DNA of 32,205 nucleotides from positions 1 through 32,205 of the IMG/VR virus record IMGVR_UViG_3300024520_000321. The stretch is one strand, 5' to 3'. The notes below the pieces were generated by a model that saw nothing but the letters and a program-made list of their open reading frames with translations, had not been told where the DNA came from and searched no databases. Position numbers and translations under genes: made by a program. Below are positions 10,688-14,878 of this stretch, piece by piece. Every line of letters starts with the position of its first letter. Position 1 is the first letter of the stretch. Origin of the DNA: a virus.

Positions 10688-10882
10688 TTATTCTGAGTAA
10701 GTTTCTGTTATTTCTACTTCATAACCTAATTCAATAAGTATTTGTTCAATCATAGTTTTTGAATCTTGATTATGTAAATCTAATTCTTTGCCGTTTACCT
10801 TTGTAACTGTGCCATAATCTGCACAACATCCATCTGCGCATCTATAATAATATTCTTCTAATTCAATTTTTACTTTTTTCAT
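10688..10882 (-). CDS. hypothetical Cys-rich small protein (64 aa)
   Basis: Contains EEYYYRCADGCCADYGT, a three-cysteine cluster that might bind metal, then an acidic alpha/beta tail ending EVEITETYSE. Its ATG overlaps the primase TGA (ATGA), and the helicase begins two bases after its stop, so it is tightly coupled to the replication genes. No function known. Confidence 0.75.
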   Translation of the reverse strand: MKKVKIELEEYYYRCADGCCADYGTVTKVNGKELDLHNQDSKTMIEQILIELGYEVEITETYSE

Positions 10883-13119
10883 TTCTTTAAATGTCTATAA
10901 AATGTTCTTCTACTAATGTCTAATGCGTCTGCTATATCTTTTTTAGGTATGTTAGGAAATTTATTTGAAACTAATATACTTAATTCCTTAGCTGGTTTTT
11001 CTTTGTGTTTATTAATAAATTCACTTAATGTATTATTTTGTTTATTCTCAATCTTATTATTTTTTGCCATTGAAATAAAATAATTACTTAATTCAGTAGC
11101 ACCTTTTATAGATTTATCTGTAATAACTGTAGCGTGTTCATCATTGTAAATTTTATTAATAAACTCTAATATCAATGCAAATCTAGGAATGTACGTAATT
11201 TGCTTTGCAAACATTCCAGTGTGGTTAGATAATTCATCTTCACTATTCATTAAGTCAATTAAATGCTTATGGCTTTTAGTATATTCTTTTTTAGCAGTAG
11301 ATGTTAATTCTAATATTTTAGGTATTATTACACCATCTACAATAGTTGTTAAATCACGATCTATAACTTCTTTTATTTTAAAAATTACATCTCTATACTG
11401 ATCAATTAACCTTTCATCTAATTCTTCTAAAGGTGGATATTTAGCTGTTTTTTTAGGGTCGCAAAATAACATACGATCCATAAAACCGTTGTTTTGATTT
11501 TCGTTAGTTTGAAATTCTTTAAAAATAGCTGGTTGAATACCACCCAAAATAGGTATAAATGGATTTTCTACAAAAGCATCTTCACTAGTTTTACGATTTA
11601 ATACAATTGCATCACCTGACCACGCACTTAAAAATCTTTCTTTGTCTGATCCATCTCTATACTTGTTCATGTCTTTAAACCATCCAGCTAATTCATCTTT
11701 AAAAACTCCGATTGATTTAGGGTTGTGGTAATGAATATCAATTAAAGATTCAATAGTAACATCATCTACGATTAACTGTGATTTAGTAGGCGCTTCTATA
11801 CTTGCGTTTACTTGTTTATCTTCTTTTGATAGGTTTTCATATTCTTTAAATTCCTTTTGGCGTTTCATGTATCGCTTTATTTCTTGGCTATTCAAATCTA
11901 ACAAAGGTTTCAAAATTAACTTAATATCAGGCGTTTTACCTACTCCAGCTGAACCTATTACGCTGATCCATAAAATAGGTGAATCAATCCATCCATTTTT
12001 TACTTTTACTTTTAACGTATTACCGACCAGAACCGAAATTAACCAAAGATAACTAACACACATAAAATCTATACTCGCATTAAGTTTTAGGTGGCACTCA
12101 TTAATATAGTTCTGCACTCCAGCTGGGAAAATGTGTAAAGGAAATTCAGTGTTTTCTACAGGTGTTATTTCTGTTATTGGTGCTTCTTCAGTTGGTTTAT
12201 ATCTATCACCATAACCATCTGCATAAGCTTGTTTAGTTGCTTCTGAATAATCACCACCAAAGTACTTATAAGTATAAACATCAAAACTATTTAAAGGCTT
12301 TTCATGTGGGTAAATTGTACCTGTACTAAATAAATACATCTTATTTGAATCGTCAAAAATATGACCACTAAAATATGAATCTGAGCCTTTACGCTTTATT
12401 AATGTAGATTTCTTTTTGTGCGCTATAATATCAAAATCATCAGAACAAATATCTAAAATAGAATTTCTTTGTGCGTAGTCCTCCCAAGGTGTTAAACCAT
12501 CTTGTGTTATTGTCTTTTGCTTCTTTAGTTTAGGCTGTACTACTTCTTCATAGTTATAAGTTTCTGATATTTGCCATAACATTCTTCTATCTTCATCTGA
12601 TATGTAATCTATTTCATGGTATTGTAAACCCTTAACCCTTTTGTAGATATAAACAAATCCTTTTGTACCTCTTGATTCAATTAAAGCTTCTTTATATCCT
12701 TTTGGTTTAGCTATTTTAGTGTTTCCTTGTACTAATTTAGATTTGTATAAAATATGATAACCTAAACTTTGAGTTTGAACAATGCAAAACTTACCGTAAA
12801 AGTTATCAATATGACTATCCAATAAATCAAAGTATTCTTTTAAAAATCCATCACGATCTTGTTTAGTTTTTAATATCTTAGAATCTACATCTATTGCTTC
12901 AACATCAGATTGACCAGTAAGCAACCCAAAAGAAACAGTATCTTTATCTTTATACCATCCATCAAACTGTAATAAATTCGCTGGTGTTTCATAAAAGGGT
13001 GTAGTACTAAATAAATTAGGTTTATGATTTCCTTTATGTTCCTTTATAGGTATTACAGATAAACCTTTATTTAATAGGTTGGTGTAAAAACCCTCTTTTT
13101 GTTTTATTAGTTTTTTCAT
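10879..13119 (-). CDS. bifunctional primase/polymerase-DUF3987 helicase fusion
   Basis: 746 aa. The N-terminal Prim-Pol domain shows AIDVDS (D77, D79), SLGYHILYK (S118...H122) and IESRGTKGFV (E148), the catalytic pattern of archaeo-eukaryotic-type phage primases. A middle linker with YFGGDYSEATKQAYADGYG follows. The C-terminal DUF3987 ATPase has Walker A GSAGVGKT (389-396) and a Walker B-like VFKDE (472-476). It ends in a helix-turn-helix, KKDIADALDISRRTFYRHLK. It should prime and unwind DNA at the fork and may recognise the origin through the HTH. A 100-base structured leader and a strong promoter precede it. Confidence 0.92.
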   Translation of the reverse strand: MKKLIKQKEGFYTNLLNKGLSVIPIKEHKGNHKPNLFSTTPFYETPANLLQFDGWYKDKDTVSFGLLTGQSDVEAIDVDSKILKTKQDRDGFLKEYFDLLDSHIDNFYGKFCIVQTQSLGYHILYKSKLVQGNTKIAKPKGYKEALIESRGTKGFVYIYKRVKGLQYHEIDYISDEDRRMLWQISETYNYEEVVQPKLKKQKTITQDGLTPWEDYAQRNSILDICSDDFDIIAHKKKSTLIKRKGSDSYFSGHIFDDSNKMYLFSTGTIYPHEKPLNSFDVYTYKYFGGDYSEATKQAYADGYGDRYKPTEEAPITEITPVENTEFPLHIFPAGVQNYINECHLKLNASIDFMCVSYLWLISVLVGNTLKVKVKNGWIDSPILWISVIGSAGVGKTPDIKLILKPLLDLNSQEIKRYMKRQKEFKEYENLSKEDKQVNASIEAPTKSQLIVDDVTIESLIDIHYHNPKSIGVFKDELAGWFKDMNKYRDGSDKERFLSAWSGDAIVLNRKTSEDAFVENPFIPILGGIQPAIFKEFQTNENQNNGFMDRMLFCDPKKTAKYPPLEELDERLIDQYRDVIFKIKEVIDRDLTTIVDGVIIPKILELTSTAKKEYTKSHKHLIDLMNSEDELSNHTGMFAKQITYIPRFALILEFINKIYNDEHATVITDKSIKGATELSNYFISMAKNNKIENKQNNTLSEFINKHKEKPAKELSILVSNKFPNIPKKDIADALDISRRTFYRHLKK

Positions 13120-13130
13120 TAGCTGTTAAA

Positions 13131-13219
13131 ATAGAAAACCCGAATTACTGTAGCGCCTTGGATTGCATTTAGTAAAACGGGTTTCTGTATAAATTTCTTT
13201 GAAAGTTCCAAGGCTTTCG
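13131..13219 (-). ncRNA. structured leader RNA with predicted kissing loops
   Basis: On the minus strand, hairpin 1 is GAAAG/CTTTC (13218-13214 with 13205-13201) with loop CCTTGGAA. Hairpin 2 is AAACCCG/CGGGTTT (13184-13178 with 13142-13136), a symmetrical 2x2 U-U internal loop, then TTACT/AGTAA (13175-13171 with 13149-13145 read as complements), and a 21-base apical loop. That loop contains TCCAAGGC, complementary over 7-8 bases to the loop of hairpin 1. A U-rich tract follows hairpin 2, as in a terminator. The predicted transcription start is at the foot of hairpin 1. No known riboswitch class recognised. Confidence 0.55.
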
Positions 13220-13225
13220 ATATGA

Positions 13226-13255
13226 CAAATATACTAAACTTTATTTAATATACAA
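13226..13255 (-). promoter_or_regulatory. Bacteroidetes-type promoter for the primase operon
   Basis: Minus strand TTG (13255-13253), 19-base spacer, TATATTTG (13233-13226). Both boxes and the spacing fit the Bacteroidetes sigma-A consensus. Transcription should begin near 13219, giving a leader of about 100 bases before the primase ATG. Confidence 0.75.
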
Positions 13256-13278: not shown

Positions 13279-13475
13279 TGTGTCATTTGTGCCATAAAGG
13301 GACGTAAAAGGGACATTGAAAATATAGCTCTATACGGGTTTTTAGTACGTTACAGAGCCTTTTTATCTAAAAATGTCCCAATGTCACACCGAAAACGGAA
13401 AATAAAAAAAAACTAAAATTATAAACCTTAATATATCTTATTGGCACAACGGGACATTTTACGTGACATTTGCAC
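13279..13475. other. repeat-rich non-coding region, candidate origin or operator
   Basis: Within the 378-bp gap 13120-13497, short motifs recur in both orientations: GGGAC (13299, 13310, 13451), TGTCCC (13374), TGTCA (13281, 13382), GTGACATTTG (13463-13472), GTGCC (13289) and GGCAC (13443). ACGTAAAA at 13302 has its inverse TTTTACGT at 13457-13464. Short A-tracts lie between (13404-13412). Clustered iteron-like motifs next to a primase carrying an HTH suggest a replication origin or multi-site operator. No gene is visible here. Confidence 0.45.
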
Positions 13476-14551: not shown

Positions 14552-14878
14552 TCAAAAAGGTAAATCATCATCACCTTCTTTAGTAGCTGGAACATCTGCA
14601 CTTAGTAAATTAATCTTCCACGCATCCAAAGTATTAAAAACTTTTACTATACCATCTGCATTAGTCCATTCACGCCCACGCAAATTAAAAAACACTTCTA
14701 CCTGTTGACCAACTTTAAAACTGTCTAACAACTCGGTTTTATCTTGTGATGCTTGAAATTGTATCGTTTGCGGATATTGCCCTGAAGCATCAGTTAATAC
14801 AAATTCACGTAATTTAAATTTATCTGATACTTGTCTAGTATCGTTAATTACTTTTAATTCTCCTTTTAATGTGTACAT
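14552..14878 (-). CDS. DUF3127 protein, probable single-stranded DNA-binding protein
   Basis: 108 aa. MYTLKGELKVINDTRQVSDK followed by FKLREFVLTD and YPQTIQFQASQDKTELLDSF matches DUF3127, an OB-fold-like family concentrated in Bacteroidetes and their phages. The C-terminus EGDDDLPF is an acidic tail ending in Phe, as in bacterial SSB proteins where it recruits partners. The nearby YqaJ exonuclease supports a recombination/replication role. A terminator follows. Confidence 0.85.
   Translation of the reverse strand: MYTLKGELKVINDTRQVSDKFKLREFVLTDASGQYPQTIQFQASQDKTELLDSFKVGQQVEVFFNLRGREWTNADGIVKVFNTLDAWKINLLSADVPATKEGDDDLPF

Follow-up and report, generated by a model that had tools for sequence, protein, structure and literature searches.

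A leader RNA with two hairpins, joined by pairing between their loops, precedes a primase gene in a viral DNA of 32,205 nucleotides (IMG/VR record IMGVR_UViG_3300024520_000321; this whole stretch is referred to as the window), and dozens of phage contigs, as well as cultured Flavobacterium phages, share its layout. We regard this kissing-hairpin leader as a real, uncatalogued candidate RNA switch of Bacteroidota phages and not as a chance fold. Observed are a well-supported structure, its conservation, a position between promoter and start codon, and a phage distribution; that the leader sets the expression level of the downstream gene is inferred, without RNA data. The existence of the leader RNA family and of its kissing pair is, in our judgment, nearly certain. 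It is a widespread structured RNA family absent from Rfam, in phages whose RNA regulation is little known, and its often-changing but always-matched loop pair, which provides over 40 natural kissing pairs, is unusual as RNA covariation goes. Cultured carriers (lillamy9-1, mumin6-1, morran9-1 and FCV-3) make the function directly testable. If the switch reading is true, the leader would be a common control point for phage replication and other early genes.

The leader in the window consists of a small hairpin (P1), a linker and a larger hairpin (P2). The features are as follows, together with the basis of each assignment.

13226–13255, minus strand: promoter TTG-N19-TATATTTG, with TTG at 13255–13253 and TATATTTG at 13233–13226 (read from the sequence; a TAnnTTTG box precedes P1 in relatives).
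13131–13218, minus strand: the whole kissing leader RNA, directly 3' of the Bacteroidetes-type promoter.
13201–13218, minus strand: hairpin P1, GAAAG/CTTTC, 13218–13214 paired with 13205–13201 (fold; covariation of the P1 stem).
13213–13206, minus strand: P1 loop CCTTGGAA (read from the sequence).
13207–13214, minus strand: K, the 5' half of the loop-loop helix, GCCTTGGA, made of P1 loop and closing G (exact complement of 13162–13155; covaries).
13186–13200, minus strand: A-rich linker AAAGAAATTTATACA between P1 and P2 (alignments A1 and A3).
13135–13185, minus strand: hairpin P2 (fold; P2 covariation).
13185–13178 with 13142–13135, minus strand: P2 outer stem GAAACCCG/CGGGTTTT, the last pair being G-U (fold).
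13175–13171 with 13149–13145, minus strand: P2 inner stem TTACT/AGTAA (fold).
13155–13162, minus strand: K', TCCAAGGC, the 3' strand of the loop-loop helix, located in the P2 apical region (covariation).
13128–13138, minus strand: U-rich stretch TTTTCTATTTT, which overlaps the base of P2 (a T-rich tail follows P2 in 54 members).
10879–13119, minus strand: first gene of the leader transcript, a Prim-Pol/DUF3987 primase-helicase of 746 aa (Pfam, PHROG).

The TATATTTG and TTG elements match the Bacteroidetes promoter consensus, so P1 is expected to begin at or within a few nucleotides of the transcript 5' end, although the start itself has not been measured. The preliminary description had proposed a promoter-proximal leader with loop complementarity over 7–8 bases; on the minus strand we read an exact 8-nt complement, such that K and K' can form 8 base pairs, and this loop-loop duplex in isolation has a predicted energy of −12.9 kcal/mol. 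The secondary-structure fold of 13131–13219, which cannot count loop-loop pairs, is predicted at −21 kcal/mol, where shuffled sequences average −12.7 (z −3.1; 1 of 200 shuffles equally good). A chance fold was rejected on the covariation described below. A AAAGAAATT-like motif in the linker recurs among relatives in alignments A1 and A3. The U-rich tract said to follow the second hairpin is real, though interrupted, and could serve as a terminator-like tail, an AU-rich ribosome site or both; it was not listed by a generic terminator scan because the P2 loop exceeds the length that the scan allows. The primase ATG follows at 13119, and the gene product matches Pfam DUF3987 (E 1.7e-52), Prim-Pol (1e-3) and the helicase and primase PHROGs. 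The window also carries genes for phage tails and for DNA metabolism. Upstream of the leader, and separated from it by a few small genes, is a DUF3127 gene (14552–14878, minus strand); in morran9-1 a DUF3127 gene is directly upstream of the leader (L086:2567–2926).

The kissing helix is supported by compensatory changes. Among 13 relatives of the window's subfamily, 93% of the alignment cells in this helix are paired, and in six of the seven pairs both partners have changed. For the structure as a whole the covariation score was 0.531, compared with 0.220 for shuffled alignments and 0.07–0.22 when the partners were slid; the P1 and P2 stems also covary. Because the kiss had been a criterion in picking some of these rows, two independent tests were run. 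In one, the loci were searched with a covariance model (R1) from which the kissing pairs had been left out, and all 18 tested matches, which lie outside the training set, had a complementary run of at least 6 bases with their own partner, whereas swapped partners reached this in 29% of cases and none of 301 permutations did as well. Some of these 18 had already been seen by the scanner described below, some are closely related to one another, and the model E-values are rough. When viral contigs were scanned with a fixed motif that left the loops unspecified, 11 of 11 members with the P2 stem kissed, among the matches listed. The kissing sequence changes freely provided that both loops change together. 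A lack of compensatory changes in homologous leaders would have refuted the two-hairpin, loop-paired leader as first described; such changes were looked for and are abundant. The structural claim of that description stands, and the RNA is much more widespread than the single sequence could reveal.

We fetched 80 primase relatives from viral contigs and inspected their upstream regions, many of which share this layout although their loops differ widely in sequence, for example the kissing pairs GTGTGGTA/TACCACAC (L004), GTGTGAGA/TCTCACAC (L006) and AGTAGTAG/CTACTACT (L007). In many Bacteroidota phages, a TAnnTTTG promoter is followed directly by P1, a 6–10 bp kiss between the loops of P1 and the larger P2, a T-rich tract and a start codon. 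A scanner requiring promoter, P1, kiss, P2 and U tail gave 28 matches in 715 kb and one in dinucleotide-shuffled sequence; one or two of the 28 resemble repeat artefacts (e.g., the minus strand of L011). Later scans added further members, and at least 41 different kissing sequences are known, each remaining complementary; family size and number of these codes are lower bounds. The nearest relative (L003) has a leader identical to that of the window (97/97), compared with 93% identity in coding DNA and 67% in upstream DNA. In several phages (L079, L172, L053 and L041) two or more leaders are present, and their codes differ. Structure-aware searches were needed because blastn with the window leader against phages matched mainly the AT-rich promoter. 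MAFFT placed the loops out of register in a mixed alignment of 28 members, which was set aside. An AGTAG/CGAAA internal loop is restricted to one subgroup. By eye, a small extra hairpin is apparent in the P1–P2 linker of some members (L014:3804, L017:1023, L043:3830, L044:3690 and L041:3645), as exemplified by ACGTTAATTATTTAACGT in L043.

Exact kissing partners are present in the cultured Flavobacterium phages morran9-1 (GTGAGAAG), lillamy9-1 (GTGAGACG) and mumin6-1 (GTGGAACG) and in the F. columnare phage FCV-3 (GTAGAGAG). With the morran leader as blastn query, matches were obtained in about 113 Flavobacterium phage records, those of F. columnare covering only the first part of the leader. 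The annotated gene morran91_gp042 overlies the leader RNA (L087 14157–14300; MN812219.1) and is probably not protein-coding. For the mumin, pippi and tant phages, the paper describing them reports no lysogeny genes; its species list of Muminvirus contains lillamy and morran (PMC7077304). Since the family occurs in phages reported to lack lysogeny genes, a point that does not extend to the phage of the window, prophage immunity is unlikely as its general role. In 299 Flavobacteriaceae genomes we found no convincing copy: 13 had weak model matches, mostly of about 70 nt, none of which passed the promoter-plus-kiss scanner, and one of which, by eye, was a plain terminator. On this search we rejected a host element borrowed by phages, and the leader RNA looks like a phage element; the filters were strict and the model covered a single subfamily, so divergent copies could have been missed. 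A protein-based search of genome contigs gave two loci, and one member, L083, sits beside a phage-type primase, its contig having been binned with a Psychroflexus MAG.

In 53 of 54 members the leader is followed by an ATG that opens a reading frame. The distance from the end of P2 to this ATG is 9–28 nt in 46 of the 53, 31–48 nt in 6 and 86 nt in 1, so that 52 of 53 fall within 9–48 nt. A stretch like AGTTACTGGTTATCTTAAAACCTTTATTATTATG occurs between P2 and ATG at L086:3157–3190 and also in L127, L131 and L169, where the gaps are longer. The first genes belong to many unrelated clusters, including primase (22), a small MEH/MKH protein (5), HNH and GIY-YIG homing endonucleases, N6 methylase, ERF recombinase, helicase and a Lin1244_N protein; the high share of primases results from the way in which the loci were collected. 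The element is accordingly not primase-specific, a point beyond the preliminary description, and a feedback specific to primase was rejected. Nor do these genes fit the pattern of a metabolite riboswitch, in which the genes of one pathway would be expected; as to a conserved ligand-binding core, the features observed are the AAAGAAATT-like linker and, in one subgroup alone, the AGTAG/CGAAA internal loop. Three free-standing homing endonucleases, of NUMOD4/HNH_3/AP2 and GIY-YIG types (L053:8085–8700, L164:2881–3465 and L235:2118–2510), each have their own kissing leader, suggesting that the leader may travel with mobile genes. The stem-then-U-tract feature of a terminator is present, with T at 0.65–0.89 over the six positions that follow the final G/C of P2 in the 54 members, but a T-rich tail was partly a selection criterion; the tract is almost absent in L110 and L201. 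At primase-type loci, phage-specific clusters of short repeats lie just upstream of the leader promoter (window 13307–13471, L003:3607–3835, L007:3560–3834, L012:3586–3761 and L026:3700–3796). Their sequences differ from phage to phage (GGGACATT, ACAATGTAACAT, AAGTGTGAAA, GTGTAACATGTTACAC and AGTGTAAAGTAA), and the clusters, strong in L007, L012 and L026, are weak in the window. One possibility is that they are origin iterons to which the Prim-Pol/DUF3987 protein binds for replication.

A minority of members, again beyond what had been described, repeat the loop-1 sequence just before the ATG (K''), so that K' could pair either with K in the kiss or with K'' at the start codon. These members are L057 (AGTGCAG), L065 (GGGCAT), L081, L110, L230 and L053, and by eye also L235, L318 and L454. 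K'' occurs in 6–7 of 41–47 distinct codes, compared with 0.4–0.6 expected by permutation, and between the homologous loci L057 and L065, K, K' and K'' have all changed together. U tracts tend to be weaker where K'' is present (p 0.006–0.017, 9 members vs 45); the K'' and U-tract comparisons are post hoc, the data having already been seen. The split resembles that between translational and transcriptional riboswitch platforms, and some members have neither K'' nor a strong U tract. The window has no K'' and no further match of at least 7 nt to its own code, on which ground a trans target of that code in its own genome was rejected.

How such an RNA would act has to be inferred. That this new phage leader-RNA family works in cis as an expression switch is our preferred explanation, one that we consider equally apt to prove right or wrong; the function is not backed by RNA data, and neither an antiterminator hairpin nor a trigger has been identified. 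The K–K' pairing would form co-transcriptionally, given that transcription completes P1 and exposes K' before it reaches the 3' arm of P2. The 'on' state would be the kissed form, in competition with an 'off' state of two kinds: where the U tract is strong, P2 may close as a terminator, leaving a short RNA of about 85–95 nt, and in K'' members K' may pair with K'' at the start codon and block translation. A protein, accumulating leader RNA or polymerase speed alone might tip the balance. The RNA of the window is of the type with a U-rich tail and no K''. The covarying kiss, the leader identity with L003, the 9–48 nt between P2 and ATG, the T-rich tail, and K'' with the weaker U tracts of its carriers speak for a switch; the lack of RNA data on start, short RNA and termination speaks against it, as do the interrupted tract and the missing K'' in the window, and the members that have almost no U tract or have neither K'' nor a strong one. 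Early termination, an RNA of about 90 nt and a switch of the operon, all raised in the preliminary description, remain inferences, none of them preferred by these data.

It is also possible, though we think it distinctly less probable, that nothing is switched and that the leader is a constitutive 5' module, whose kissed, stacked 5' end guards the mRNA from decay while the AU-rich ribosome-binding region before the ATG stays open and the kissing sequences drift with compensation. The fixed place at the 5' end near the ATG, the unrelated downstream genes and the free drift of the kissing sequence would all suit such a module, but protection needs no terminator-like tail, and the joint change of K'' with K and K' suggests competing pairings. 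Less likely again is recognition in trans, in which a terminated leader, from the phage itself or from a co-infecting phage of the same code, would pair with the loops of new leaders and shut the operon, the loop sequence being a specificity code as in P4 CI RNA, C4 RNA, IsrK and plasmid copy control. At least 41 codes exist, which differ between phages of the same hosts (lillamy GTGAGACG, mumin GTGGAACG) and among leaders of one phage (L079, L172); K'' lies at the ATG in some members; and IsrK offers a precedent for a short RNA and a read-through mRNA from one promoter (PMC4825925). Set against this are the lack of any demonstrated RNA, the absence from the window of another match to its code, the occurrence in phages without lysogeny genes (PMC7077304), which excludes a simple prophage immunity, and the fact that neutral compensated drift can also diversify codes. 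We hold it slightly more doubtful still that private self-complementary codes let phages recognise their own leader RNA in trans and so set replication-gene expression, as plasmids do with antisense RNA; the code would then measure gene dose or a co-infecting phage of the same code.

The remaining explanations have little in their favour. Processive antitermination like that of HK022 put, in which the folded RNA would bind RNA polymerase so that later terminators are read through, is improbable: two hairpins do come right after phage promoters, ahead of several operons per phage, but the T-rich tail and the fixed short distance to the start codon do not fit, and to our knowledge neither loop pairing nor K'' is a feature of put. 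We see very little room for the leader as an element of a replication origin, or as primer RNA, beside the primase gene. ColE1 priming likewise uses kissing loops, and repeat clusters lie upstream of the leader at primase loci, but leaders also precede homing-endonuclease, methylase and recombinase genes, with several per phage, and a replication primer is not favoured by such unrelated genes. Least tenable is an ordinary terminator or AT-rich region with loops complementary by chance; P2 with its T tract is terminator-like, and the weak model matches in host genomes look like plain terminators, but the kissing pair covaries in sets that were chosen independently, which contradicts this explanation, and we rejected it.

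No known RNA class accounts for the leader, in agreement with the initial impression that no named class matches. Rfam 15 gave no match for the window at gathering scores and only chance-level matches in the region at E up to 10, and in 15 member loci only a tRNA was matched; the models of C4 antisense RNA and IsrK were not matched, and by this criterion the leader does not belong to the IsrK family. We found no description of a kissing leader RNA in the literature, preprints and most subscription papers being outside the coverage. In HK022 put, two hairpins directly follow a phage promoter, but put is not known to have a loop-loop code, a T tract or a fixed start-codon distance. The leader RNA of C4 (RF01695), from P1/P7-type phages, has loops complementary to sites near the downstream start codon, a likeness shared by the leaders with K''; most leaders, including that of the window, differ in lacking K'', and the family occurs in phages without lysogeny genes. 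Phage P4 CI also involves leader RNA pairing in a primase-helicase operon, with a pairing segment that can match copies on both sides, but it has no sequence relation to the leader. P4 depends on an RNA that is processed and acts in trans, and its role is lysogenic immunity; neither has been shown for the leader. The criterion of serving the prophage immunity of a temperate element is not fulfilled in the family, since its carriers include phages reported to be without lysogeny genes (PMC7077304), a point that does not extend to the phage of the window. The leader resembles ColE1 RNA I/RNA II in that two hairpin loops pair over about 7–9 nt with a freely changing code; the ColE1 loops belong to two RNAs from opposite strands, whereas the leader holds both in one transcript. 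IsrK of the Salmonella prophage Gifsy-1 yields a terminated short RNA and a read-through mRNA from one promoter, and alternative pairings control translation (PMC4825925). Its layout and host differ from those of the leader, for which a short RNA and trans action have not been shown and which is defined by its internal kissing pair; the loop segment complementary to the start-codon site that marks C4 and IsrK is present in a minority of relatives, as K'', and absent in the window. IsrK is the closest functional parallel that we found in the literature, and the present leader may work likewise.
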